The notes beneath the pieces were generated by a model that ran no database searches, was not told the origin of the DNA, and saw nothing but the letters and a program-made list of their open reading frames with translations. The translations under genes were made by a program, and so were the position numbers. A stretch of DNA of 22,086 bases from a virus, in the IMG/VR virus record IMGVR_UViG_3300008450_000517, positions 1-22,086 of that record. One strand, written 5' to 3'. Numbering within the stretch: the stretch's first letter is position 1; the number at the start of each line of letters is the position of its first letter. This document shows, piece after piece, positions 6,954 through 20,917 of this stretch.

Positions 6954-7259
6954 ATGTCAATGTACAAATCAGCAAGAGGTAAAACAATTGATATGTCCAC
7001 ATTAGCTACAAAGAATGAAAAGACACGTGCTGTGGGCAATATGAATGTTAATGCAAGAGGGGATATTATTGATCCTCATGGTAAGATAGTACGTGATTCT
7101 ACTAATAGAATCAAAAACTCTTACAATAAAACAGTTACTACTGCTCCTAACAATTTGAATCGATCACCTATTGAAGCAGATAAAACAATCGATAAAAACG
7201 AGTTGACTGCTGAAGAATTAGAATTTGAAGAAGATGATGACGAGGAAATTAAAAAGTGA
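6954..7259 (+). CDS. Small protein with acidic C-terminal tail
   Basis: A 101-residue protein with a basic, polar N-terminal part (KSARGKTIDM, KNEKTRAVGNMNVNARGD, IKNSYNKT) and a strongly acidic tail (ELEFEEDDDEEIKK). It has no membrane segment or signal peptide and is probably largely disordered. A very good ribosome binding site (AAGGAG at 6941-6946) precedes ATG 6954. The stop TGA (7257-7259) overlaps the GTG start of the co-chaperonin gene, so the two are coupled. The pattern resembles a small protein common in T4-like aquatic phages that I know only as a conserved hypothetical. A capsid-assembly or chaperonin-substrate link is suggested by the coupling alone. Confidence 0.65.
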   Translation: MSMYKSARGKTIDMSTLATKNEKTRAVGNMNVNARGDIIDPHGKIVRDSTNRIKNSYNKTVTTAPNNLNRSPIEADKTIDKNELTAEELEFEEDDDEEIKK

Positions 7260-7624
7260 AATTAGCATTTGAACCACATAGATTCAACAAGGATCAATTT
7301 AAACCATTAGGTGAACATGTCATTGTATATGACATGACATTTGATGAACGTATCACGCACAGTGGTATCATTTTACCAAACGATGATATGAAGTCATCAG
7401 GTATCAGACCTCGTTGGGCGCAGATTTATGCAGTAGGACCCGATCAAACTGATCCTGAATTAGTTCCGGGTAAATGGATCTGTATATCACACGGAAGATG
7501 GACTCGAGGTGTCGATATTGAAGATGAAACGGGCAAACACACCATACGCAGAGTAGATATTAATGATATACTACTTGTAAGTGACGAGCCCGTCTACGAT
7601 TTAACAATGAGTGACAAAGTATAA
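7256..7624 (+). CDS. GroES-like co-chaperonin, T4 gp31 type
   Basis: A 122-residue Cpn10-fold protein. The FKPLGEHVIV opening (15-24) and the mobile-loop segment ERITHSGIILP (31-41) carry the hydrophobic IIL tripeptide, equivalent to GroES IVL, that docks on GroEL. A roof/beta-barrel part then runs AQIYAVGP (55-62), VPGKWICISHG (70-80) and DILLVSDEP (104-112). In T4, gp31 replaces GroES so that the host GroEL chamber folds the major capsid protein gp23. The same role is inferred here, as the phage would supply the cap and use host GroEL. The length is slightly more than T4 gp31 (111 residues). The start is GTG 7256, overlapping the preceding stop, with GAGG at 7240-7243 as a distant ribosome binding site and likely coupling. 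Confidence 0.85.
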   Translation: MKLAFEPHRFNKDQFKPLGEHVIVYDMTFDERITHSGIILPNDDMKSSGIRPRWAQIYAVGPDQTDPELVPGKWICISHGRWTRGVDIEDETGKHTIRRVDINDILLVSDEPVYDLTMSDKV

Positions 7625-7633
7625 AGGAACACA

Positions 7634-7936
7634 ATGATAAACTGGTTAAGATTAAAACTACATAATTTTATTTTTCCACAGGATATTAATGAGGTGGTAG
7701 AATCAAAACATCCTTCTACTAGAAGAGGTGTTGCCCTTGTTAGTCGCGGCTCACACCTCGATAGTAGAGGTATGAATTTTACAATTCATATGGCTAATGG
7801 TGGTTATGTATTGGAGTATTCATCGTATAATGAGAAAACAGACAGGCACGATACCGCACTACATATTATCAATAGTGAAACTGATTTAGGTCAAGGTATT
7901 GCACACGTTATTACATTGGAAATGTTAAAAAAATGA
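7634..7936 (+). CDS. Small protein of unknown function
   Basis: A 100-residue protein starting MINWLRLKLHNFIFPQ, an amphipathic or weakly hydrophobic N terminus, followed by mixed strands with a SRGSHLDSRGMNFTIHM segment and a GGYVLEYSSYNEKTDRHD turn. No family is recognised. AAAGGAA at 7623-7629 gives a good ribosome binding site. The last codons overlap the clamp-loader start by four bases (ATGA at 7933-7936), so the two are likely co-translated and this protein may be made in step with the replication gene. No function is assigned. Confidence 0.65.
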   Translation: MINWLRLKLHNFIFPQDINEVVESKHPSTRRGVALVSRGSHLDSRGMNFTIHMANGGYVLEYSSYNEKTDRHDTALHIINSETDLGQGIAHVITLEMLKK

Positions 7937-8856
7937 AGAATCAACTATGGGTTGAGAAGTATCGTCCTAATATAATTGAGGACTATGTTTTTGTAGATGA
8001 CAATCAACGACAACAGGTTACTGGCTGGGTTAAGACTCAGAGTATCCCTCACTTGTTGTTGAGTGGTGAGCCAGGTACAGGTAAGACCACACTAGCAAAA
8101 ATATTGATTAATGAACTAGGTATTAATGAATACGATACACTAGAAATCAATGCTTCACGTGAAAATAGTGTTGACGTTGTACGTGACAAAATTTTAGGAT
8201 TTGTGCAAACAATGCCATTTGGTAAGTTTAAAGTCGTATTATTAGATGAAGCTGATTACTTGACCCCAGCTGGTCAGGCAGCATTGCGTAATGATATGGA
8301 AGCGTATCATATGACTGCACGATTCATTCTAACATGTAACTATCAGCATCGTATTATACCAGCACTTAAGAGCAGATGTCATGAGTTTCACATCACAAAG
8401 ACAGACAGAACAGAGTTTACTACACGTGCGGCAAAAGTGTTGTTAACTGAGGGTGTTGAATTTGATTTAGATGTATTGGATAACTATATACGTGCTACAT
8501 ATCCAGACTTACGTAAGTGTTTGAATCAACTTCAAGTCAACAGTAGTACTGGTAAACTTATCAATACATCCACTACAACAGACGGAGAAGACAGTTTGTT
8601 AGCAGAAGCTACACAGTTGTTTAAGTCCGGTAAGATTATTGAAGGTCGTCAACAACTACTTCAATATCTTGCGTTGTATCCAAGTCGTATTGAAGATACA
8701 TACAGATGGATGTACGAAAATTTAGATTTGTGGGGAAATTCACAAGAACGCAAAGATGCGTCAGTTATTATAATTCGTAATGGTTTGGCAAACTTAAGTC
8801 TTGTGGGTATTCCAGAAATCAATCTAGCAGCCACAATTATTGAACTTACCAGTTAA
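7933..8856 (+). CDS. 44: Sliding-clamp loader AAA+ subunit, T4 gp44-like
   Basis: A 307-residue AAA+ ATPase of the RFC small-subunit/gp44 family, opening with the typical WVEKYRPNIIEDYV (6-19). Walker A is GEPGTGKT (45-52). Walker B is VVLLDEAD (101-108), with E106 as the catalytic base. Sensor 1 is TCNY (134-137) and the SRC arginine-finger motif is at 147-149 (LKSRCHEF). The C-terminal helical collar follows. It loads the phage sliding clamp (gp45 type) onto DNA using ATP and normally assembles with a gp62-like fifth subunit. No gp62 or gp45 gene is visible in this window; the next gene is too short and unlike gp62. It overlaps the preceding gene by four bases. The length agrees with T4 gp44 (319 residues). 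Confidence 0.93.
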   Translation: MKNQLWVEKYRPNIIEDYVFVDDNQRQQVTGWVKTQSIPHLLLSGEPGTGKTTLAKILINELGINEYDTLEINASRENSVDVVRDKILGFVQTMPFGKFKVVLLDEADYLTPAGQAALRNDMEAYHMTARFILTCNYQHRIIPALKSRCHEFHITKTDRTEFTTRAAKVLLTEGVEFDLDVLDNYIRATYPDLRKCLNQLQVNSSTGKLINTSTTTDGEDSLLAEATQLFKSGKIIEGRQQLLQYLALYPSRIEDTYRWMYENLDLWGNSQERKDASVIIIRNGLANLSLVGIPEINLAATIIELTS

Positions 8857-8864
8857 GGAAAAAC

Positions 8865-9116
8865 ATGAGATATTTTTTAGTTACATATACCACCAAAGCA
8901 GGTGGACAGATCGATGAAGTTGTTAGTGTTAGTAAAAATACTAGACCAAATGACATTCAGACTTGTAATGTGATTATGGATTACAAGAATCGGAGAGTAG
9001 ATAAGTGTGTTATTGAAGGAAAGAAAGTAGATACTGATTGGGAAAAGTTAGATGCCTATTATAGGCAATTATACCCTAACATTATTGAACGGTTAGAAGC
9101 AGAAGCTAAAACATAA
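8865..9116 (+). CDS. Small conserved-looking protein downstream of the clamp loader
   Basis: An 83-residue protein opening MRYFLVTYTTKAGGQIDEVV, with a strand-rich first half, then a VIMDYKNRRVDKCVIEGKKV segment, then a helical C-terminal part (DWEKLDAYYRQLYPNIIERL). No domain is recognised, and it lacks the size and features expected of gp62. TAAGGAAAAAC precedes ATG 8865, a good ribosome binding site, and the gene is 8 bases after the clamp loader in the same operon. It ends at a terminator. A role in replication is only suggested by position. Confidence 0.65.
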   Translation: MRYFLVTYTTKAGGQIDEVVSVSKNTRPNDIQTCNVIMDYKNRRVDKCVIEGKKVDTDWEKLDAYYRQLYPNIIERLEAEAKT

Positions 9117-9140
9117 AAGAGGGCTTTCGCCCTCTTTTTT
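9115..9140. terminator. Bidirectional intrinsic terminator between convergent genes
   Basis: AAAAGAGGGC (9115-9124), loop TTTC, then GCCCTCTTTTTT (9129-9140). The core is a 6-bp GC-rich stem, extended to 10 bp by A-T pairs, with a run of six T on the + strand and a matching AAAA run on the other strand. It ends the + strand operon and overlaps the phoH stop codon by two bases. Confidence 0.93.
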
Positions 9141-9921
9141 ATAAGTACAATTTAAGTACATGCTCAATTATCTTGTGTCTTTGAACATCTTTCAGTTCAA
9201 AGTGGCACTGTTGCAACCCTGGAATCACCCCCTTCCTCAATCGATTTTGTAAGTCTAGTAGCCCATTGTCGGCTGTTTTTCTATCGGCTTGTTCAATGTC
9301 GCCAGTAATTACAATCTTACTACCAACGCCGATTCTAGTCATAATCATTTTGAGTTGACCAGGTGTTGCATTTTGAGCTTCATCTAATATTATATAGCTA
9401 TTTTTAAAGTTTCGACCTCGACAGAATGCTAGGGGTGCAATTTCAACTATCTGTTCTTCTAGCATGTGGGCGATTTCCGCTGCCGTATAATATTCACGTA
9501 AAACATCAAGTAAAGGTCTTGTCCATGGTTCCATCTTTTGATTAAGATCACCTGGCAAGAATCCATGCTTTTCATCGTCTACACCCACTGCCGGGCGTGT
9601 TAAGATAATACGATCTACCTCACCTGCTTTTAATGACTTAATAGCAGCCAGCATTGCAAGATACGTTTTACCTGTCCCAGCCGGTCCTCCAACCACAACT
9701 ATATCAGTATCTTTATCTAAAAGAGCTAGAATGTATTTTTCTTGATTTAAAGATTTGGGTACCAGTTGTATCGGTCTACGGTCTAGTTTGATGCGACTTT
9801 GGTCAAAATTGATTGTTTTGCTTTCTTGTTTATAGAATGTTTGTGGATCATGTTTTTTACTGTGTGAATAACGTGTGTCTTGTTCTTGTTTGCGTAATGC
9901 GCCTGTTTTGCGTTTGCTCAA
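9139..9921 (-). CDS. phoH: PhoH-family ATPase
   Basis: A 260-residue P-loop ATPase of the PhoH family, common in T4-like aquatic phages. Walker A is GPAGTGKT (79-86), followed by the family blocks ILTRPAV and GFLPGDLNQKMEPW (Q and W conserved). Walker B is YIILDEAQN (176-184), followed by TRIG and ITGDIEQ (sensor region). The family couples ATP hydrolysis to RNA-helicase or RNase-linked activity in some bacteria; its purpose in phages is unsettled. I chose TTG 9921 because AAAGGAG (9934-9928) lies 6 bases before it, giving an MSKRKTG start. An ATG at 9954 and a TTG at 9963 in the same frame are possible but have poor ribosome binding sites. The N-terminal ~50 residues are basic and probably disordered. 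It is the only gene on the minus strand and is transcribed divergently from 10091. Confidence 0.92.
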   Translation of the reverse strand: MSKRKTGALRKQEQDTRYSHSKKHDPQTFYKQESKTINFDQSRIKLDRRPIQLVPKSLNQEKYILALLDKDTDIVVVGGPAGTGKTYLAMLAAIKSLKAGEVDRIILTRPAVGVDDEKHGFLPGDLNQKMEPWTRPLLDVLREYYTAAEIAHMLEEQIVEIAPLAFCRGRNFKNSYIILDEAQNATPGQLKMIMTRIGVGSKIVITGDIEQADRKTADNGLLDLQNRLRKGVIPGLQQCHFELKDVQRHKIIEHVLKLYL

Positions 9922-9966
9922 AGTATTCTCCTTTGTATCGAGCCGAGTTCTCATAACACTCAAGTC

Positions 9967-9974
9967 TATTTACA
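9967..9974 (-). promoter_or_regulatory. Late-promoter-like box TGTAAATA toward phoH
   Basis: On the minus strand the sequence reads TGTAAATA, one mismatch from T4 late TATAAATA and identical to the box at 18419-18426. Initiation about 7 bases downstream would give a leader of roughly 40 bases to TTG 9921, or a very short one to ATG 9954. Confidence 0.3.
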
Positions 9975-10021
9975 TCCATATGGATCATGCAATATAGAGT
10001 AGTTTTTAAGTAATGAAAAAC

Positions 10022-10031
10022 GATAAATATT
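10022..10031 (+). promoter_or_regulatory. Late-promoter-like box GATAAATATT
   Basis: GATAAATATT shares the ATAAATA core with the box at 10077 and lies 60 bases before ATG 10091, giving a leader that would contain the hairpin at 10052-10074. Confidence 0.35.
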
Positions 10032-10051
10032 AGGCTCAGTCCGTTTTTTGA

Positions 10052-10074
10052 TTATCAATACAATGTGTTGATAA
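10052..10074 (+). promoter_or_regulatory. Ten-base-pair hairpin upstream of a late-promoter-like box
   Basis: TTATCAATAC (10052-10061) pairs with GTGTTGATAA (10065-10074) with one G-U and a three-base loop; seven outer pairs are perfect in DNA. It has no following T run on either strand, so it is not a simple terminator. An operator, or an RNA element in transcripts from 10022, fits better. Confidence 0.4.
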
Positions 10075-10076
10075 AA

Positions 10077-10086
10077 GATAAATACT
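10077..10086 (+). promoter_or_regulatory. Late-promoter-like box GATAAATACT
   Basis: GATAAATACT is identical to the box at 15680-15689. The last A of TAAATA (10084) is 7 bases before ATG 10091, so initiation at the standard distance would give an RNA starting at the AUG; no Shine-Dalgarno sequence is present. Confidence 0.5.
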
Positions 10087-10090
10087 AATT

Positions 10091-10720
10091 ATGAGCAAAC
10101 TTCCAGCAGACGATTTCTTTACCAACATTGATTACCCTAGTATTATAGATACTGTCAAGGGTATATATACCAGTGATGCTTCCATTAACACTTTATTAGA
10201 TTTTGAACGTGTTTTGGATGAAGCTGACTTGTATGCATACAAAAACTGGGGACTAGGTGAACTAGTAGACGGTCCGGACAGTAAACGATATAGTGTTTCT
10301 TGCATTTTTATGTATCCTGAAAAACTAATGCCAGACCCAAGAGGTGGCAAACGTTTAATAAATTTAGGATGCACTATACAGTTTAAGAAAACTACAATTA
10401 AAGTACCAGTAGATATAAAGACTCCTGAAGACTATAAACCAGGAACACATTACCCTAAACTAACTGAGCGCATGGTTTGGTTAGTTAGAATTGAAATCCC
10501 TAGAGAATTGATGAATGATATCCGTGAGGGTAGTATTGATTTAGCAGACCAAACTATTGACCTAGAAGAACTAGATAGTGCATACGATGATGATTTAGAT
10601 AAAGAAGGTTTAGAGGGTGAAGAGGGCAGAGCACCCGCAGATCAAATGGGAGGCATGCCAGCACCCGGAGGACCTGCATTACCAGTAGGCGGACAAATTC
10701 CCCTAGGCGGAGGTCTATAA
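10091..10720 (+). CDS. Unknown protein with acidic, Gly/Pro-rich tail
   Basis: A 209-residue protein. Residues 1-150 look folded (a DYPSIIDTVKGIY helix, then strands around RYSVSCIFMYPEKL and LINLGCTIQFKK, and a LVRIEIPRELM segment). From about 150 there is an acidic stretch (LEELDSAYDDDLDKEGLEGEEG). The last 25 residues form a Gly/Pro/Met linker-like tail (GGMPAPGGPALPVGG). No family is recognised. It lacks a ribosome binding site but has a late-promoter-like box immediately upstream. Its stop overlaps the next ATG by one base (TAATG). Its position before a holin candidate and its late-type promoter suggest a virion or assembly protein, which is inference only. Confidence 0.65.
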   Translation: MSKLPADDFFTNIDYPSIIDTVKGIYTSDASINTLLDFERVLDEADLYAYKNWGLGELVDGPDSKRYSVSCIFMYPEKLMPDPRGGKRLINLGCTIQFKKTTIKVPVDIKTPEDYKPGTHYPKLTERMVWLVRIEIPRELMNDIREGSIDLADQTIDLEELDSAYDDDLDKEGLEGEEGRAPADQMGGMPAPGGPALPVGGQIPLGGGL

Positions 10721-11259
10721 TGAGAAAAATTATTAATGAAACATTAGATTACCATGATTTAGAAAACATGGTAGTACCTATAGCAACAATAGATAAGTAT
10801 GAAGCTAAAATGGGCGATGATGACGAAATCGTTACAGTGACTTTCACGGTTAAGGGCAAACAAGTTGCAGAAGATTTAGTAGATTGGTTAGAGCGTGGTT
10901 ATGACTATGTACTAGATGCACAAACAAGCGAAGGTGAAGTAAGTCCAGGCAAATATTTAGTATTTGTTGAAATGGATCGTAGAACAAGAACACCTGAACG
11001 TATTATTGAAATGATAGAAGATATGGATACATTAACTGATCTTTCTTTAAAAGATTGGTCTGTAATCATTGACGAAGAAGAACATGAAGTTACTGTGGAA
11101 TTATTAAAATCTAAAATAATACTAAGTCCACATGAGTATAGAAAATTAAAAGAAACGGATCTCAATGAGATGCGTAGTCGTGCTGGATTAGAACCGCACA
11201 ATGTGTATTTTGAAAAAGATAACATACTAAAAGATTTTATAGCAAAAGCTGGATTATAA
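10720..11259 (+). CDS. Unknown acidic protein, coupled to its upstream neighbour
   Basis: A 179-residue protein, strongly acidic, with an alpha/beta pattern. A strand pair around DDEIVTVTFTVKG is followed by VAEDLVDWLERGYDYVLDAQ, a KYLVFVEMDRRTRTPERIIE segment and a helical C-terminal region (LSPHEYRKLKETDLNEMRSR). No signal peptide, membrane helix or catalytic motif is visible. It starts on the TAATG overlap with the previous gene and is followed by AAGGAGAAC leading into the holin candidate. The two genes at 10091 and 10720 probably act together, but I do not recognise the family. Confidence 0.6.
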   Translation: MRKIINETLDYHDLENMVVPIATIDKYEAKMGDDDEIVTVTFTVKGKQVAEDLVDWLERGYDYVLDAQTSEGEVSPGKYLVFVEMDRRTRTPERIIEMIEDMDTLTDLSLKDWSVIIDEEEHEVTVELLKSKIILSPHEYRKLKETDLNEMRSRAGLEPHNVYFEKDNILKDFIAKAGL

Positions 11260-11269
11260 GGAGAACATA

Positions 11270-11878
11270 ATGGCGCAAACGCTACTAGCAAGAAAATCGG
11301 GACCACAAGACAATACAATTGCAAAAGATGACGATCACTATGAGCAATTAGCGGCAGATCCTACTGTTAGTGAGTTCTCGAAAAATAGTAGTTTTGGAGG
11401 TTCAAGTAATGCATTCAGTACATCAGCAATCGGTAGTTCAACAGGAGACTTTGGCTCATTTGGTTCACCAACCACAAACAATTTTGGATCACAACCATAT
11501 GGCAGCAGAGGCGGCTTTGGTAGCAATTCAAACTTTGGAGCGGGAGCGAATTCATCTGGATCGACACCAAATCTTACACAAGCAGGATCAAATGCCGCAC
11601 AAGGGGCAGACGTATTAGTAGCTAATGACAATACTGATTGGATTAACAAAAAATGGCGTCCAGTTATGGGCTGGGTATATATGTTAACTTGTACAGTTGA
11701 CTTTGTTATATTCCCGGTATTATGGAGTTTATTACAAGCATTAAGTAAAGGTTCAGTAACAAGCCAGTGGCAACCATTAACATTACAGGGTGCTGGTCTT
11801 TACCACATTGCTATGGGTGCAGTTCTAGGTATCGCCGCGTACGGTAGAACAAAAGAAAAAATTGAGGGTAAATCTTAA
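11270..11878 (+). CDS. Probable holin, GTA-type, with a long Gly/Ser-rich N-terminal extension
   Basis: A 202-residue protein in two parts. Residues ~36-115 are low-complexity Gly/Ser/Asn/Phe sequence (GFGSNSNFGAGANSSGS). Residues ~124-202 match the GTA/3TM holin pattern: WINKKWRPVMGWVYM (124-138), a long membrane segment (about 132-157) containing DFVIFPVLWSLLQAL, then WQPLTLQGAGLYHIAMGAVLGI (167-188) as a second membrane segment, and a basic end. Holins of this family open the inner membrane to release the endolysin, here presumably the GH19 enzyme at 1907. The usual family member is only the C-terminal part, so the extension is unusual. The ribosome binding site AAGGAG (11259-11264) is excellent. 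Confidence 0.78.
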   Translation: MAQTLLARKSGPQDNTIAKDDDHYEQLAADPTVSEFSKNSSFGGSSNAFSTSAIGSSTGDFGSFGSPTTNNFGSQPYGSRGGFGSNSNFGAGANSSGSTPNLTQAGSNAAQGADVLVANDNTDWINKKWRPVMGWVYMLTCTVDFVIFPVLWSLLQALSKGSVTSQWQPLTLQGAGLYHIAMGAVLGIAAYGRTKEKIEGKS

Positions 11879-11879
11879 T

Positions 11880-11907
11880 TTGACTTTTAACACTAAGGTG
11901 TTATAAT
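11880..11907 (+). promoter_or_regulatory. Sigma70-like promoter with an inverted repeat in its spacer
   Basis: TTGACT (11880-11885), a 16-base spacer, then TATAAT (11902-11907): the -10 is perfect and the -35 has one mismatch from TTGACA. The spacer contains the inverted repeat TAACAC (11888-11893) / GTGTTA (11898-11903), which overlaps the -10 and looks like an operator. The expected start (about 7 bases on) falls on the A of ATG 11914, implying a leaderless or near-leaderless dnaJ message. It is the only textbook host-type promoter I see in the window. Confidence 0.75.
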
Positions 11908-11913
11908 TATCAG

Positions 11914-12678
11914 ATGGATCATTATCAAATTTTAGGGGTAGCAAAAAACGCTACTCCTGACGAAGTAAAAAAAGCATATCGTAGACTTGCAAGTATTCAT
12001 CACCCGGATAAGGGCGGTGATACTGCCCAGTTCCAAAAAATTCAAGTAGCATATGACACATTAAGCGACCCGCAGAAAAAACAAGACTATGACAATCCAC
12101 ATGCACAAGGTTTCCCCGGTGGATTTCACTTCTCTAACCAAGGATTTAACATCAACGATTTATTCGGTCAAATGTTTAGTCAGAGACAACAACCTTCTAA
12201 TCCAACCTACAAAACCGATGTATGGATATCATTGGAACAGGTGTACACTAGCGGAGAACAGGTATTACATTTCAATGGTAATAACCTTAACCAAACCATA
12301 AGGGTAGAAATACCACAAGGTATAGAAAACGGTCAACAAATACGCTATGAAAATATGCTTCCTAACGCTATACTTATAGTAGAGTTTAGAGTTAAACCTC
12401 ATCATAAATTTGAAAGAAGAGGTATGAACTTGTACTCTACACACAAAATAAGTGTTTTGGATCTAATCGTAGGTGATAGCTTTGAGTTTACTACTATCAG
12501 TGGTAAAACTTTAGCAGTAACAGTTAACCCAAAAACACAACCTGGAAGTTTACTACGTATTTCGGGACAGGGTTTAATTAGAAATGGTATAGCAGGGGAC
12601 CAAATGATCTTGCTTGATCCATTCATTCCTGATATAATTGACAGTTCTATCACTAATAGCATTATTGCTAGTAAATAA
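11914..12678 (+). CDS. dnaJ: DnaJ/CbpA-like J-domain co-chaperone
   Basis: A 254-residue Hsp40. The J domain spans residues 1-67, with YQILGVAKNATPDEVKKAYR, the invariant HPD at 30-32 (HHPDKGGD) and a YDTLSDPQKKQDYD end. A short Gly/Phe-containing linker follows (FPGGFHFSNQGFN). The C-terminal substrate-binding domains then come directly (KTDVWISLEQVYTSG, then VEIPQGIENGQQIRYEN, GDSFEFTTISGKTLAVTV and LLRISGQGL). No Cys-rich zinc finger is present, so this is a class B/CbpA-type J-protein. It would stimulate host DnaK; no dnaK or grpE is in the window. It is expressed from its own sigma70-like promoter and is 18 bases upstream of clpA, so the two form a chaperone-unfoldase pair. Confidence 0.92.
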   Translation: MDHYQILGVAKNATPDEVKKAYRRLASIHHPDKGGDTAQFQKIQVAYDTLSDPQKKQDYDNPHAQGFPGGFHFSNQGFNINDLFGQMFSQRQQPSNPTYKTDVWISLEQVYTSGEQVLHFNGNNLNQTIRVEIPQGIENGQQIRYENMLPNAILIVEFRVKPHHKFERRGMNLYSTHKISVLDLIVGDSFEFTTISGKTLAVTVNPKTQPGSLLRISGQGLIRNGIAGDQMILLDPFIPDIIDSSITNSIIASK

Positions 12679-12696
12679 CTTAAAAGAGGTAACATA

Positions 12697-14973
12697 ATGA
12701 ATCATAGCCCAGAAATTGAACATATTATTGAACAGGCAATAGGCCTAGCAAAAGTTCGTAGACATGAATATTGCACTATTGAACATTTATTATTGTCTCT
12801 AATAACATATTCACCCTTTAGTAAAGTTTTAGACGACTTTGGAGTTGATACTGCAACTATGGTTAAAGATGTAAGTGGATACCTAGATAACCAACGTAGT
12901 ATTGAAGCATCTTCTGATATTGAACAAGAAATTCAACCACGTAAAACAAATAGCTTAGAACGTGTAATGAATCGTTCGGTAACACAAGTATTGTTTACTG
13001 GTCGTAAATTTGTTACAACTATTGATTTGTATCTTAGCATCAGTAACGAAACAAATACACACGCACATTACTTCTTCTTAAAGTATGGTATTAATAAAAA
13101 CGAATTTATACCATTCTGGCAAAAATACTACAAAAACAATGAAGGCGAAGCACCATTAACTACCGATCGGGCTGATGAAATCTTGGAAGAATATACAACC
13201 AACTTAACTGATTTGGCCCGTCAAGGTAAACTTGAACCAATGATAGGTCGTACTAAAGAAGTAGATGACATAGTTAACGTTCTTGCTAAACGATTTAAAT
13301 CAAATGTATTGATGGTAGGTGATCCTGGTGTAGGTAAAACTGCAATTGCAGAAGGTCTAGCAAGTAAAATCATCAACGATGAGGTACCCAAGTTCTTAAA
13401 GGATCATGAGTTGTATTCGCTTGAAGTGGGATCATTACTTGCTGGTTCTAAATATCGTGGTGACTTTGAAGAAAAGATTAAATCGGTACTAGAAGCATTA
13501 GTTACTAAAAAGAAAGCAGTACTATTCATTGATGAAGCGCATACTATGAAAGGCAGTGGTTCAGCTAACAATGGTAGTGTTGACTTTGCTAACATGATTA
13601 AACCGGCTATTACTAAAGGTAACTTGAAAGTTATTGCTAGCACTACTTGGGAAGAGTACTATGAATCATTTGAGAAGGATCGTGCATTGATGCGTAGATT
13701 CTATCGTGTGGGCGTAGATGAGCCGGATCGTGATTCTACTATTCGTATCCTTAAAGGTCTAAGCACACGATTGAATGACTTCCACTCAGTAAACATTACC
13801 GATGATGCAATTACAGCGGCAGTTGATAGTGCTACACGTTATATGCATGACCGTAAGAATCCTGACAAATCCATAGATTTGATTGACGCGGCTTGTGCCA
13901 AACAACGTGTATTAGGTAATCAACAAGTAGATATTACAAAAGAGTTAGTATATGAACAAGTTGAACGCATGACTAAAGTTCCTGCTGATAAACTAAACAG
14001 TGATAGTTATGAACGTATCTTTAGTTTAGAAGCTAACATTAAGAATAAGCTTTATGGTCAAGAAGATACAGTTGATAAAGTACTTGAGCGTATCTATGTG
14101 TCGTTTGCAGGTATCGGTAATCAAACACGACCAATGAGTAGTTTTTTGTTCTTAGGCCCGACTGGTACAGGTAAAACTGAACTAGCTAGATTATTGAGTA
14201 GTAGTTTAGATATGCCCTTACTCAAATATGATATGTCAGAGTATTCAGAGAAGTATTCAGTTTCTAGTTTGATTGGTCCCCCACCGGGTTATGTTGGATT
14301 CAATGATAGCCAAGTATCAGGTGGACGATTGATTAATGACTTGAGCAAGAATCCTCACAGTATATTGTTGTTTGATGAAGTTGAAAAAGCTCATCCTGAT
14401 ATATTTAATATCTTCTTGCAGATGTTAGACGAAGGACGTATTACCGGATCTAATGGTAAAGAAGTTAACTGCAAGAATACTATCATTATCTTAACAAGTA
14501 ATTTAGGTGCAAGTGATAGTGAACGAAATCAGATCGGGTTTGGTAATCAAGAACGTACAGGTGATGATGACCGAGCATTAAAAGAGTTCTTCAAACCAGA
14601 GTTCCGTAATCGGTTAGATATGATATGTAAGTTCACTAAACTTGATATGTTGGCTATTAAGAAGATTGTTATCAAGTTTACCGATGAGTTGAAGAAATCG
14701 TTAAAAGAAAATAACGACATCACAATCAATCTGACTGAACCTGTAGTAGAATATCTAGCAGAGCATGGATATGATAGCAAGATGGGTGCTAGACCATTGA
14801 GTAGAAAAATTGATGAACTTATTAGAGTTCCTTTAAGTAAGAAGATTCTATTTGATAGAATCAAAGGTGCACATATCAATATCAATTTAGTAGATTACAA
14901 GATTATGTTTGATGTACAACCTAAATTAACAGCAACGGTGGGTGAGAATGGGATTATTGAAATCAGTCAGTGA
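12697..14973 (+). CDS. clpA: ClpA-type AAA+ unfoldase with ClpP-docking-like loop
   Basis: A 758-residue two-ring Hsp100 protein, the same length as E. coli ClpA. The N domain is at about 1-140. AAA-1 has Walker A GDPGVGKT (208-215) and Walker B VLFIDEAH (D279, E280). AAA-2 has Walker A GPTGTGKT (487-494), Walker B LLFDEVEKAHPD (D560, E561), GPPPGYVG and FRNRLD. The long coiled-coil middle domain of ClpB is absent, so it is ClpA/ClpC-like rather than a disaggregase. IGF at 613-615 lies at the position of the IGL loop (617-619) with which E. coli ClpA binds ClpP, so it probably feeds substrates to host ClpP. No clpP or clpS gene is seen nearby. The ribosome binding site is AGAGG. It lies 18 bases after dnaJ and overlaps the next gene by 26 bases. 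Confidence 0.93.
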   Translation: MNHSPEIEHIIEQAIGLAKVRRHEYCTIEHLLLSLITYSPFSKVLDDFGVDTATMVKDVSGYLDNQRSIEASSDIEQEIQPRKTNSLERVMNRSVTQVLFTGRKFVTTIDLYLSISNETNTHAHYFFLKYGINKNEFIPFWQKYYKNNEGEAPLTTDRADEILEEYTTNLTDLARQGKLEPMIGRTKEVDDIVNVLAKRFKSNVLMVGDPGVGKTAIAEGLASKIINDEVPKFLKDHELYSLEVGSLLAGSKYRGDFEEKIKSVLEALVTKKKAVLFIDEAHTMKGSGSANNGSVDFANMIKPAITKGNLKVIASTTWEEYYESFEKDRALMRRFYRVGVDEPDRDSTIRILKGLSTRLNDFHSVNITDDAITAAVDSATRYMHDRKNPDKSIDLIDAACAKQRVLGNQQVDITKELVYEQVERMTKVPADKLNSDSYERIFSLEANIKNKLYGQEDTVDKVLERIYVSFAGIGNQTRPMSSFLFLGPTGTGKTELARLLSSSLDMPLLKYDMSEYSEKYSVSSLIGPPPGYVGFNDSQVSGGRLINDLSKNPHSILLFDEVEKAHPDIFNIFLQMLDEGRITGSNGKEVNCKNTIIILTSNLGASDSERNQIGFGNQERTGDDDRALKEFFKPEFRNRLDMICKFTKLDMLAIKKIVIKFTDELKKSLKENNDITINLTEPVVEYLAEHGYDSKMGARPLSRKIDELIRVPLSKKILFDRIKGAHININLVDYKIMFDVQPKLTATVGENGIIEISQ

Positions 14974-16212: not shown

Positions 16213-18393
16213 ATGGCGGTAGTTGTTGTTTATGGTGGAGGGTTTCAACCCTTTCATGCAGGACATTTGAGCAGTTATGTAGAGGCTAAACGTGCCTTTC
16301 CTGATGCTGAATTCTTTGTTGCCGCCAGCAATGATGTTAAACAACGACCTATTCCTTTTAAAGTAAAGAAGTTTCTAGCACAACAAGCAGGTGTTAGAGA
16401 TGCGTTTGTTGAAGTAAGGCAGCCGCTCAATCCTAAAGAAATTTTAGAAATATTTGACCCTGCAAAAGATATATTTGTATTAGTACGTAGTGAGCGTGAC
16501 CCTATGCCATACACTAAAAAAGATGGTAGTCCCGCATACTTCCAACCATTTGTCAGTTTAGACCAATGTAATCCATATGGTAAAAATGCTTATGTACTAG
16601 TCACAAAGAAAAAAGATTTTACTGTTAATGGTCAAGAAGTATATTCTGGATCACAAGTACGTGACATGTATACTAATGCAGACGATGTAAATAAAGAACA
16701 AATCATTAGTCAGTTATATCCTAAGAGTAGCCACAAAGATACAATCAAACAAGTCTTGGATCAATATTTGCAATCTACACCTAAAACAGTTTTGGAGCCC
16801 AAAGTGCCAGCAGCTAAACAATTAAAGAATAAGAAACTAGCAGAGATGATTAAACAAGCTAGACCTTTACTAAAAGAAGCATCAATTGAAAAGAAAGTAA
16901 AGTTTCTTAAGTTGTTAAAAGATTATGCAATAACAAATATAGAAGAAGCAGTTAGTCCTACGTATGGTGACGTAATTAAAACACGTAATAAGATAGCACA
17001 ACAAACTAATCCTACTCGTAATAAGTTTATATGGAAACGTCCTAATCAGATCCGTGGTAGTTATACTGACCAACAATTAATTTCACAAGGTTTTCGTAAA
17101 TCAGCACAAAACAATCTATGGGGCGGTACACAAGAAATGTGGGATCGTTTATCAGAATCATTGAATGAATTTGCCCCACCAAGTAGAGATGACGGCGGTG
17201 GCGAGAATGATAGAAATCGTAGAATAAGAAAACTATTAGAAATTGCCATACAAGTAGCAAAAGAAAAAAATGTCGATGAATTGGGTATGATACATGCCAT
17301 GAATATGATAGCAGGTGATGACTTTTTCAATACAGCAGTTGAAGGTATATTACCGGACATAACAGATAAAGAATATATGTTTGTGCTACAGAGTGCTTAT
17401 AAAACAGTAAAGCAAGGTTTAGCAGAAGCAAAGAAAAAAAGAAAAAAGAAAAGTAAAAACCGTAGTATTGGAAGATACTTCTTTCCGGGATATGGTTACT
17501 ATGGTGGTAGTGGGGAATCAGGTGAGGGTGGAGGAGATGCCGGCGGTGAAGGTATGGCGGAAGGCGTCCCTCAACCAGGACCAAGTTCAGGTGCTCCAAA
17601 ACAGTTCGGTGCTGATGCCCAAATACAAACTCGCCAAATGACGGTAAAAGATATTATATCATCTATACCCGGTGTGCCTTACTATAACAATGTAGTCGAT
17701 GATTGGGACGCTAAAGATTATAGTTGGGGCGTTACTAAAAAAGTTATAGAGTATGCTACTTACTTGAAGGATCATCCAGAAAGTTTATCAAAGTTGCCAC
17801 CAGCAATAGTATTAAACGGTAAGTTTGAAGATGGTGCCCATAGGGTATCTGCCATATGGTTGCTACAACAAAGAATGGATCCTAAAAATCCATTGTGGAA
17901 AAATGCTAAATTAAATGTTCAATTTGTTAAGCAAGGTGTAGCGGAAGGCTCCTTAAACGAACTTGCACCAGGTGGGAACGGTGGCGACGGTGATGATGAC
18001 AAATATATTCCGCCAGACTTTGGTAAACCTTTCAAAGCAAACTATTTGGGACAGAATAAATTTCAAGTATTTTGTCGCAGACCACAAGATCCATCTAATG
18101 TCATTACATTAATTGCCGAAGTTCAAAAGTATGGACTTGAATGGGAGGATAATTTTGGATTTTGGTTCTTAGACAGCCCTGGTGCTGTGTACCTTAGTTG
18201 GAAGTACGGTGAAATACCATTGCCCAAAGCCATTGATCAGGCTAGAAATCCAGGACATATTCACGATTTAGTCACAGACTATCTAACCAATTCTCCACAT
18301 GCATCTGAGATACAACAAATAGCAACAGAATATTTTGGCTTTACTATGGATGGTGACATGAATGAATCTGTGGATTATTTAGACGAGAAATAA
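16213..18393 (+). CDS. Multi-domain protein: nucleotidyltransferase, ParB-like domain and linker modules
   Basis: A 726-residue mosaic. Residues 1-~188 are a cytidylyltransferase-like nucleotidyltransferase fold (NMNAT/NadM-like) with GGFQPFHAGH (HxGH at 15-18) and SGSQVR (145-150, the SxSxxR-type motif). Then come a Lys-rich helical linker (about 191-245), a basic segment (246-315), a helical module (316-405), a Lys-then-Gly/Tyr-rich segment (406-450), a ParB/sulfiredoxin-like domain with DGAHRVSA (540-547) ending near 578, and an unrecognised C-terminal module (579-726). Module borders fall on LKE-A (222/223), IEE-A (245/246), LSE-S (315/316), LAE-A (405/406), MAE-G (450/451) and VAE-G (578/579). 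These fit the T4 prohead-protease rule (L/I)xE before A/S/G, with V or M allowed. Two modules open with SLNE(F/L)AP and two close with VKQG(L/V)AE. It may be a head-packaged, processed polyprotein or simply a multidomain enzyme. Confidence 0.75.
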   Translation: MAVVVVYGGGFQPFHAGHLSSYVEAKRAFPDAEFFVAASNDVKQRPIPFKVKKFLAQQAGVRDAFVEVRQPLNPKEILEIFDPAKDIFVLVRSERDPMPYTKKDGSPAYFQPFVSLDQCNPYGKNAYVLVTKKKDFTVNGQEVYSGSQVRDMYTNADDVNKEQIISQLYPKSSHKDTIKQVLDQYLQSTPKTVLEPKVPAAKQLKNKKLAEMIKQARPLLKEASIEKKVKFLKLLKDYAITNIEEAVSPTYGDVIKTRNKIAQQTNPTRNKFIWKRPNQIRGSYTDQQLISQGFRKSAQNNLWGGTQEMWDRLSESLNEFAPPSRDDGGGENDRNRRIRKLLEIAIQVAKEKNVDELGMIHAMNMIAGDDFFNTAVEGILPDITDKEYMFVLQSAYKTVKQGLAEAKKKRKKKSKNRSIGRYFFPGYGYYGGSGESGEGGGDAGGEGMAEGVPQPGPSSGAPKQFGADAQIQTRQMTVKDIISSIPGVPYYNNVVDDWDAKDYSWGVTKKVIEYATYLKDHPESLSKLPPAIVLNGKFEDGAHRVSAIWLLQQRMDPKNPLWKNAKLNVQFVKQGVAEGSLNELAPGGNGGDGDDDKYIPPDFGKPFKANYLGQNKFQVFCRRPQDPSNVITLIAEVQKYGLEWEDNFGFWFLDSPGAVYLSWKYGEIPLPKAIDQARNPGHIHDLVTDYLTNSPHASEIQQIATEYFGFTMDGDMNESVDYLDEK
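17407..17955 (+). repeat. Repeated module-border motifs in the mosaic protein
   Basis: Codons at 17407-17430 encode VKQGLAEA and codons at 17926-17952 encode VKQGVAEGS, the same motif 519 bases apart. The sequence after the second border, SLNELAP (17950-17970), matches SLNEFAP (17158-17178) after the earlier LSE border. The repetition lies at domain junctions rather than inside domains. Confidence 0.7.
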
Positions 18394-19474: not shown

Positions 19475-20917
19475 ATGCAGTTAAACGAACTAGATAATTT
19501 CAGCCTCAGCGATGCGGTCTTCTTTCATGACGAGTTAAATCCCGCTATATTTGCCGGTGACCATATGAAATACGATGTTAGAGAACAACTATTACATATT
19601 GCTGAAGACTTTGTAGAACATCTTGGCATACCGAATATAGACATAGTAGACATTACTATATCAGGTAGTAGTGCAGCCTATTCGTATACAAAATACAGCG
19701 ATATTGACCTACATATTCTAGTTGACATGAACAAATTCTCCGATGATGATGTATATCGTGAACTATTTGATGCTAAAAAAGTCGTATATAATGACCAACA
19801 CGATATTGTTATTAACGGATATGAAGTAGAGTTATACGTACAAGATACAAATCAGCCTGTAATTAGTTTAGGTGAGTATTCAGTAATGAATGACAAGTGG
19901 ATCAAACTTCCTAGAAAACGTAGAGCACATTTAGATCAGGCTGCTACTAAAGCCAAGTTTGAGAAGTTATATAAGTTATCAGAATATGCTGTAAAATCTA
20001 AAAATTTAGAAAAGATAAGACAAGTATTAAAGACAATTAAGAAGTATAGACAAGCAGGATTAGATGTTCATGGGGAGTTTGGTCCTGAGAATTTAGCATT
20101 TAAAGCAATACGTAGTAAAGGTATAATAAAGCATCTATATAATATGGTAGATGAATTGCATAGTAAACAGTTAAGCATACCTGAGAGTAAATTGTTAGGT
20201 CAACTAGATGAAATCATTGACATGCCTCCAGTAAAAAAACGATTGGATATAGAATCAATGTATAATGATTTACAGTACAAAATTAGATACCATGAAGCCA
20301 GTGAATTAACTTCAATAAAATTTTCAATGAAAAATCGTGTATTTCGTGATGGAGATCATGGATTAAAATTTTTCTTATTTAATAAAGATAAACCAGTCTT
20401 TTATCTTGGTATAAGTAAATTCCATGATGGATTTAAAACAGGTGCGGTTGCTAGTAGTCCTGAAGTACAGGGTCAGGGTTTAGGTTGGAAATTATATAAA
20501 GCTGTTAGTGAGTATCTAAATGTACCGTTATATAGTGACAGCACACAAACACCTGACAGTAAGAATGGCATTTGGCAGAAATTGATTCAAAATTATCCTA
20601 AACAAGTTATAGGGTATAATCAAATATTGCGTAGAAATGTTCCTATTAATAACATATATCAAACATTGCCTCAAGATCAATTAAAAGATATAGAGGATGA
20701 TACTAGAAAAAATACATTATTATTAAAGTTATTGCCCATAGCAGTAACAGATATGTATGAGGCATCAGGTTATATCCCTAGTGAAGGTGAAAAGAACGAC
20801 CCTAGATGGGAACGTGCATTAAGTATAGATGTGCATCCAGATACAATGAAAAAGCAGGCTAAGAAATTCGGTTGGAAGATTAGTCGTGCCGGAATTCCCC
20901 CATTGCTAAGAAAATAA
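19475..20917 (+). CDS. Nucleotidyltransferase-GNAT acetyltransferase fusion with C-terminal tag
   Basis: A 480-residue two-domain protein. Residues ~35-150 are a Pol-beta-type (MNT-like) nucleotidyltransferase with TISGSSAAYSYTKYSDIDLH (61-80): GS at 64-65, metal acids D76 and D78, and a third acid probably E119 in VELYVQD. Residues ~280-385 fit a GNAT N-acetyltransferase, with the acetyl-CoA loop VQGQGLGWKLY (331-341; QxxGxG). The C-terminal ~50 residues (from about YEASGYIPSEGEKNDPRW to SRAGIPP) form a short basic tail that I remember as recurring at the ends of unrelated proteins in uncultured phages. Before it, MYE-A (429/430) fits a prohead-protease-type site. Possible roles are nucleotidylating or acetylating a host target or antitoxin. 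ATG 19475 has no ribosome binding site; the next in-frame ATG is codon 31 (nt 19565). Confidence 0.78.
   Translation: MQLNELDNFSLSDAVFFHDELNPAIFAGDHMKYDVREQLLHIAEDFVEHLGIPNIDIVDITISGSSAAYSYTKYSDIDLHILVDMNKFSDDDVYRELFDAKKVVYNDQHDIVINGYEVELYVQDTNQPVISLGEYSVMNDKWIKLPRKRRAHLDQAATKAKFEKLYKLSEYAVKSKNLEKIRQVLKTIKKYRQAGLDVHGEFGPENLAFKAIRSKGIIKHLYNMVDELHSKQLSIPESKLLGQLDEIIDMPPVKKRLDIESMYNDLQYKIRYHEASELTSIKFSMKNRVFRDGDHGLKFFLFNKDKPVFYLGISKFHDGFKTGAVASSPEVQGQGLGWKLYKAVSEYLNVPLYSDSTQTPDSKNGIWQKLIQNYPKQVIGYNQILRRNVPINNIYQTLPQDQLKDIEDDTRKNTLLLKLLPIAVTDMYEASGYIPSEGEKNDPRWERALSIDVHPDTMKKQAKKFGWKISRAGIPPLLRK

Follow-up and report, generated by a model that had tools for sequence, protein, structure and literature searches.

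The window analysed here is the whole of a virus fragment, 22,086 bases in length. It holds the gene for P0001, a modular protein of 726 residues, and further downstream a second modular open reading frame (Table 1). The borders between modules in these proteins resemble the cutting sites of a phage head protease, and many borders in related proteins are spelled by one conserved DNA word. This text concerns the word, the joints it marks and what they may mean for the way in which such proteins are assembled and processed. An arrow marks the joint in the motifs below.

The modular protein P0001

A sequence-only reading of the window had listed six sites in P0001 of the form (L/I/V/M)xE followed by A, G or S, ending at E222, E245, E315, E405, E450 and E578. 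All six are present at these residues, together with a seventh that had been overlooked, DMNE718↓SVDYLDEK. Module ends of the form VKQG(L/V)AE occur twice, at residues 400-405 and 573-578, and SLNE(F/L)AP module starts also twice, at residues 316 and 580, again as had been described. Seven sites compare with a shuffle mean of 1.75 (P=0.0013, 20,000 shuffles). The count alone is weak evidence, since other proteins of the window also exceed their shuffles; for instance, window:7933-8856 has 4 sites against 0.89. The claim that the motifs at the junctions are not due to chance is borne out: two instances of the KQGxxE-coding pattern lie in the window and none in 100 shuffles, and the main support is comparative.

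Table 1. Positions of P0001, its parts and the second modular frame in the window
Feature	Position	Strand	Remark
P0001, modular protein, 726 residues	16213..18393	+	Single open frame; seven [LIVM]xE↓[AGS] sites
Nucleotidyltransferase-like N-terminal module, about residues 1-150	16213..16662	+	No targeting peptide ahead
Site E222 (LKE↓A)	16870..16881	+	Read from sequence alone; doubtful
Site E245 (IEE↓A)	16939..16950	+	As for E222; doubtful
Site E315 plus SLNEFAPP (LSE↓SLNEFAPP)	17149..17181	+	Related contexts in L038, L044, L017
Junction word variant coding KQGLAE↓A (E405)	17410..17430	+	In relatives, different modules follow the same joint
Lys-rich and Gly/Tyr segment, residues 406-450	17428..17562	+	Sequence; model confidence low
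Site E450 (MAE↓G)	17554..17565	+	Module start conserved in relatives
ParB/Srx-like module, residues 451-578	17563..17946	+	Shuffled among many proteins
Junction word coding KQGVAE↓G (E578), AAGCAAGGTGTAGCGGAAGGC	17929..17949	+	Commonest form differs by one base
C-terminal module, residues 579-718	17947..18366	+	Starts GSLNELAPGG; sequence; fold unknown, model confidence low
Site E718 and C-terminal tail SVDYLDEK	18358..18390	+	Tail common to 25 distinct frames
Second modular frame: nucleotidyltransferase-like, GNAT-like and ASGYIPSE modules	19475..20917	+	phrog_36119, E 2.7e-43
Site E429 (MYE↓A) of the second modular frame	20753..20764	+	Border without DNA word

The N-terminal module matches Pfam CTP_transf_like with 21.6 bits against a cut-off of 21, and its alignment profile leads to phosphopantetheine adenylyltransferases (best E 0.00098). 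Hits of a fold search are nucleotidyltransferases as well, all of them weaker than E<=0.001. Residues 451-578 form a module that we take to be ParB/Srx-like from a motif; a relative of it had no match in Pfam. The mean predicted local distance difference test (pLDDT) score of the P0001 structure model is 42.2, and order is confined to the ParB-like part and a portion of the N-terminal domain. Its best-modelled part is the ParB-like stretch (residues 461-575, pLDDT mostly 50-84), and the joints at 450 and 578 fall in low-confidence stretches adjoining it. The model matched nothing in the fold library at E<=0.001, and P0001 has no match in PHROGs. In a tblastn search of 50,697 named phage records, P0001 found a single record, with 28.8% identity over residues 3-153, and two modules searched in the same collection were not found there.

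Shuffling of modules among relatives

Relatives were gathered as loci, 56 of them from a search with P0001 and most through the DNA word. Contexts were de-duplicated by their flanking letters. Alignments of less than 50% identity or fewer than 25 residues, or starting beyond query residue 2, were excluded. The sequence-only reading had proposed looking for the motifs in related phages, and there the modules turn up in many different, unrelated fusions whose joints coincide. A terminal copy in G001, a record of 180 kb, is 100% identical to P0001 over residues 1-573. Matches to the module at residues 446-579 are mostly bounded near residues 434-490 and 578-597 and have 78-98% identity; two longer matches, in L025 and L034, have 59 and 61%.

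Motifs at the borders of homologues fared differently from site to site. E222 and E245 have no independent support. The module that starts at the E450 border stands behind KQGVAE↓ in L007, L022 and L032; in the alignment column of E450, [LIVM]xE is found in 16 of 24 rows, 13 of them with A, G, S or N next. Counterparts of E315 read LSEGSLNEFVPP (L038), LAEGSLNEFVPP (L044) and VSESSLNEFAPG (L017). At the other end of the protein, the tail DY(L/I)(D/E)E, or a form one residue longer, ends 25 distinct frames in the loci, and [LIVM]xE directly precedes it in 14 of these (counted by hand). The tail may be a portable targeting signal or a propeptide; T4 Alt, according to passages of PMC9026906, has a C-terminal propeptide. 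With K, N or R added, DY(L/I)(D/E)E often ends frames that are otherwise unrelated.

Over all loci, KQG[VLIM][AST]E occurs in 230 distinct in-frame contexts, which fall into 135 upstream and 175 downstream clusters. The combinations are mixed on both sides: 34 of the 135 upstream clusters have between 2 and 15 different downstream partners, and for 29 of the 175 downstream clusters the number of upstream partners is 2-5. A single frame can contain as many as seven xQGxxE words.

Similarity between the shuffled genes stops at the edges of the DNA word. Pairs with only the upstream module in common are identical at 0.88 of positions up to the word and at about 0.30 beyond it (339 pairs), and pairs with only the downstream module in common rise from 0.28 before the word to about 0.8 after it (51 pairs). 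Where neither module is shared, identity is about 0.29 on both sides and 0.93 within the word (25,872 pairs, the non-synonymous bases being fixed by the search). A pair with and without a cassette is provided by L145, on the same contig as L003, and L039. In the P0001-like gene of L145, YKTVKQGLAE and GEEITEGPFV flank a stretch of 173 residues that includes the ParB-like module, and in L039 these two segments are joined directly. L003 and L079 form a second such pair, and a third case, in L183, is a tandem duplication.

In 115 contexts that are unique on both sides, the word is common and nothing else. Because unrelated modules have only the word in common, the word would be the place of exchange. 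The same contexts bear on the notion of ordinary multidomain proteins that stay intact, with linkers alike through common descent of a few fusions. Such an origin would suit the kinds of domain present, since nucleotidyltransferase, GNAT, ParB-like and LysM domains recall the “polyvalent proteins” of phages, as described in parts of PMC5512222. With the word as the sole common element of these contexts, it is very improbable.

A conserved DNA word at the joints

The commonest separator, KQGVAE↓G, is coded by a conserved word of 20-21 bases, (N)AGCAAGGTGTGGCGGAAGGC. A scan with a fully degenerate pattern for KQGVAEG gave 119 stretches; the 80 loci listed among them contain 86 distinct contexts, 84 of these in the KQGVAE frame. 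Among these matches listed, KQGVAE(G) is spelled AARCAAGGTGTGGCGGAA in 62 of 84, compared with 0.57% expected from the codon usage of the same frames. The word is coding: in 209 of 215 contexts it falls inside the longest open frame of 100 codons or more.

Contexts of the form xQGVAE in which x is not K were not selected by the scans, and in 116 of 158 of them the exact core CAAGGTGTGGCGGAA is found. Their first codon is GAG in 45 and GAA in 17 cases for E, and CAG in 41 and CAA in 6 for Q, against a background of 82% GAA and 78% CAA in the same frames. Thus AG stays constant in the DNA even where the encoded residue differs. One base upstream of the word, the information in the 115 contexts that are unique on both flanks is 0.07 bits, and at base 21 it has dropped to 0.15 bits; in this profile the non-synonymous positions are fixed by the search, and some loci come from the exact-word scan.

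Synonymous variation can also be compared between the word and its own module. For the ParB-like family, with 15 sequences taken only from loci of the P0001 search, the word has a synonymous heterozygosity of 0.075 and the module one of 0.262; not one of 54 six-codon windows reaches so low a value. Over all loci, the word is less variable in two of three families (0.095 vs 0.267 and 0.190 vs 0.424). The sequence-only reading had treated the repeated motif as a motif of the protein alone. The DNA that spells it is conserved at synonymous positions too, and a protease by itself does not account for that.

One way to account for synonymous conservation across 20-21 bases is a signal acting in the RNA or in translation. 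Against this, Rfam gave no match in four sources, three word regions folded no better than their shuffles (z 0.27, 1.08 and -0.37), and the word marks module joints in all contexts examined. A signal of this kind is thus highly unlikely.

The word is absent, with up to 3 mismatches allowed, from T4, Vibrio phage 2.275.O and PA5oct, and a blastn search of all named phages gave no full match (partial ones only, best E 2). In 84,980 bacterial and archaeal genomes the exact 21-base word occurs in one stretch, L279, on a Rhizobiales contig and in frame within an open frame of 263 codons. This is probably a chance match, as 4^21 predicts about 0.1.

Borders without the word

The signal in the protein is distinct from the DNA word. 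At 272 non-redundant borders where something other than KQG or xQG precedes the same downstream modules, [LIVM]xE stands at the joint in 149, compared with 0-13% at 23 other offsets. A stricter set leaves out borders with a remnant of the word, defined as more than 8 of 18 bases matching, and alignments starting beyond query residue 1. In the 85 borders that are left, [LIVM]xE stands at the joint in 35, again with 0-13% at 14 other offsets. Examples are IAVTDMYE↓ASGYIPSE from this window, QYRGGISE↓ASGYIPSE and SSPEPLAE↓GVLDNPGQ. The first of these is the E429 border of the second modular frame, where relatives read KQGVAE↓ASGYIPSE; 7 of its 18 bases match the DNA word, with a background mean of 5.2.

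These borders help to weigh a simpler explanation, in which the word is no more than a linker prone to recombination and travels along with the modules, the proteins stay uncut and the likeness of VAEG to a protease site is a coincidence. The synonymous conservation and the free first base do indicate that DNA, beyond protein, is constrained or homogenised, and the residue following the joint is permissive at the word. A recombination scar alone is nevertheless rather unlikely, given that borders without a remnant retain [LIVM]xE at the exact joint, that the same modules stand behind T4-like targeting peptides ending in xE, and that the S77 protease accompanies Gp23 in every Gp23 record. The last two observations are described in the following section.

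Head protease, capsid and targeting peptides

A gp21-like protease gene in the genome had been proposed as a check. Peptidase_S77 was found in G001 (locus L093), the record that contains the P0001 copy, which also has a Gp23 capsid gene. The record of the window itself is uninformative, for the Peptidase_S77 search of its 22,086 bases gave no match and the controls gave nothing above the cut-off either. Among 17 records tested for both genes, ten have Gp23 and Peptidase_S77 together, seven have neither and none has one alone; the seven may be fragments.

The capsid protein of G001 is nearest to those of Vibrio phage 2.275.O (67%) and the PA5oct group (66%) among named phages. Capsid proteins of eight related records read KxLL(S/A)E↓S, YLAE↓S, SLME↓N, MLAE↓N or YLKE↓N near the N-terminus. 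By analogy with T4, this L-x-E↓S/N position is presumably the maturation cut. Passages of the literature give comparable rules for two phages: T4 gp21 cuts after L/I-X-E (PMC9026906), and gp245 of SPN3US cuts after AXE with V preferred at P4 (PMC10052503). In the IPIII peptide of T4, the change E10D prevents processing (PMC9026906). In L125:2626-3405, a frame that by eye resembles an HNH endonuclease directly follows the capsid gene, and PA5oct has an annotated Hef-like homing endonuclease in the equivalent place.

The internal head proteins of T4 carry a short N-terminal targeting peptide: IPII and IPIII start MKTYQEFIAE↓A and IPI starts MKTFKEFTSTTTPVSTITE↓A. A comparable early start, M(K/R)xxE(F/I/L)xxE, is found in 42 of 159 modular genes on the loci. 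As a control, the same expression picks 2 of 44 open frames in T4, namely IPIII and IPII, and does not pick IPI. A narrower pattern, ATG-MGN-GCN-NNN-GAR-TTY, has 22 matches in nine records and none in T4, and its reversed control has one. A targeting-peptide pattern had no match in T4, 2.275.O or PA5oct, a result of no weight since the peptides of T4 itself are spaced differently. At G012:C1:291389-294611, a span of about 3.2 kb has four genes that start MRAxEF; it adjoins a junction word at 294343 and is a putative cargo cluster.

Ten rows from five module families show the same module both behind a targeting peptide and behind KQGxxE, with the joint placed identically (e.g. MRANEFIVE↓NFADGKHP). 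An eleventh row, MKTHDIDE, was left out as probably an internal Met. The targeting peptide is conserved across 63 families and its codons vary in the ordinary way, which is why the uniform spelling of KQGVAE stands out.

Short motifs that repeat at linkers could also serve for docking. KQGVAE and LNEFAP would then bind the scaffold or core and draw the protein, uncut, into the head, and LNEFAP-like segments are indeed similar to the N-terminal peptides MRLNEF and MILNEFFE. Docking leaves unexplained both the synonymous conservation and the retention of E at joints where the remaining motif is lost, and is improbable.

A model for cargo recruitment

P0001 is best explained as modular cargo that is packaged in the head and processed by an S77 protease, with the word for the cutting site doubling as a recombination joint. 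We give this reading, which is drawn from sequence comparison, a probability of about 0.62. The P0001 family would belong to uncultured large Gp23/S77 (T4-like) phages and be destined for the head. During head maturation, the S77 prohead protease of the phage itself would cut E↓G/A/S/N sites between the modules. The resulting modules would be separate mature proteins that enter the host along with the DNA. Phages would swap modules by recombination at the word, where an incoming module would stay in frame and would bring or meet a cutting site.

Neither process is sufficient by itself. A protease would keep E and the residue two before it, and does not alone explain a single spelling. Recombination at the word would produce a single spelling, and leaves the motif unexplained at borders that have lost the word. 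Taken together, the two would account for the observations. Those on which the model is built, namely the borders, the motif enrichment, the targeting-like N-termini, the synonymous conservation and the similarity steps at the word, are seen directly in the sequences. From them we infer cleavage, packaging, injection, and recombination as the cause of the identity of the word.

Several findings weigh against the model. Although modular head cargo cut by a prohead protease, as the sequence-only reading had proposed, has strong sequence support from the borders, the protease and the targeting-like N-termini of relatives, P0001 does not share the last of these: it begins MAVVVVYGGGFQPFHAG, with the nucleotidyltransferase domain first and no N-terminal targeting peptide. 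Of 1627 non-modular genes on these loci, 147 have targeting-like starts too, and they may likewise be cargo. In alignment A2, no row besides P0001 and L001, a near-identical copy, has sites 222, 245 and 315, and 8 of 24 aligned rows have no [LIVM]xE at E450. The same is true of 50 of the 85 remnant-free borders (59%) at the aligned joint, in part through alignments that start 1-2 residues off. The first residue after the joint (P1') at word-bearing borders is N, D or E besides G, A or S, and D and E lie outside the classic T4 rule as the sequence-only reading had stated it. The KQGLAE family, to which P0001 belongs, shows no extra synonymous conservation (0.208 vs 0.158). Finally, most loci were collected through the word itself, and counts from the exact-word and degenerate scans are counts among the matches listed.

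In a bolder version of the model, the word is a dedicated exchange site, acted on by a homing-type endonuclease, a recombinase or strand-annealing machinery. It would set the frame and code for the head-protease cut in a population-wide cassette system for injected effector modules. This version is tentative, and its odds are clearly below even. If true, one stretch of coding sequence would serve both for recombination and for the processing of the protein.

T4-like phages inject proteins that decide the first minutes of infection, and little is known of how new ones are gained. If real, a connector serving as recombination joint and protease site at once would explain a fast turnover of injected proteins without problems of frame or targeting. 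Injected proteins of uncultured phages could then be traced by the word as a sequence tag, and the recruitment of cargo would become a directly testable question.

Relation to known systems

The closest parallel is found in the internal head proteins of T4, IPI-III and Alt. Shared features are the N-terminal peptide ending in (L/I)xE↓ in relatives of P0001, the presence of S77 and Gp23 in the same records, and the (L/I)xE↓ sites, which here stand at module borders. The T4 proteins are single genes with a terminal propeptide, whereas here many sites lie inside one frame and P0001 has no N-terminal peptide.

Shuffling in T4-type phages has a precedent in the PeSL cassettes, reportedly described by Arbiol (2010) and Comeau (2014), in which short conserved sequences are said to border the exchanged units. 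PeSLs are said to be promoter-terminator motifs between genes. They are thus intergenic; the word described here is coding and lies inside frames.

In SPN3US and phiKZ, head proteins are cut at AXE or S/A-X-E, according to parts of PMC10052503 and PMC9026906. The likeness, as far as these parts go, extends to many ejected head proteins being cut after E by a gp21 relative and to several sites within propeptides. The cuts described there for SPN3US produce N-terminal propeptides (the protease itself excepted), while the sites here separate modules.

Polyvalent proteins are large mosaics of diverse domains that are thought to enter the host with the DNA (Iyer 2017, passages of PMC5512222). In those passages the authors liken them to the polyproteins of RNA viruses and suggest release by embedded peptidase domains. 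Here, no peptidase domain is found among the Pfam matches of P0001 or of 113 module representatives, and the S77 protease is a separate gene. A repeated junction word, present here, is not described in the same passages. A search of open-licence literature found no description matching this system, and among the listed matches to the string KQGVAE none concerns phages.

The modules and neighbouring genes

The 113 module representatives match 18 Pfam families (E<=0.001), each in one or two members, including ParB_N, Polbeta, GNAT, LysM, GH19 chitinase, TonB C-terminal and Tat signal. In PHROGs they match 58 families, most of them without function. The Pfam matches of window:19475-20917 to NTP_transf_2 and GNAT are below the cut-off. 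A module with YLWHGSR had been considered as an ADP-ribosyltransferase on account of a motif; this was rejected, there being no match to a PDB sequence, Pfam or a fold (best E 0.49).

A shuffled module in L066, L070, L165 and L200 starts EEIDRRGFLKG, and the Tat signal of Pfam is matched by one representative; the putative cargo would here include a signal like those used for export. The module at L156:3508-3876 has a weak CHAP match below the cut-off and is possibly of a cysteine peptidase or amidase fold.

A “moraphage” core genome, as given in parts of PMC12619734, includes a Gp23-type capsid, a prohead protease, ClpA and PhoH. Elsewhere in the window, positions 7256-14973 hold GroES-like, clamp-loader-like, PhoH, DnaJ-like and Clp-like genes.

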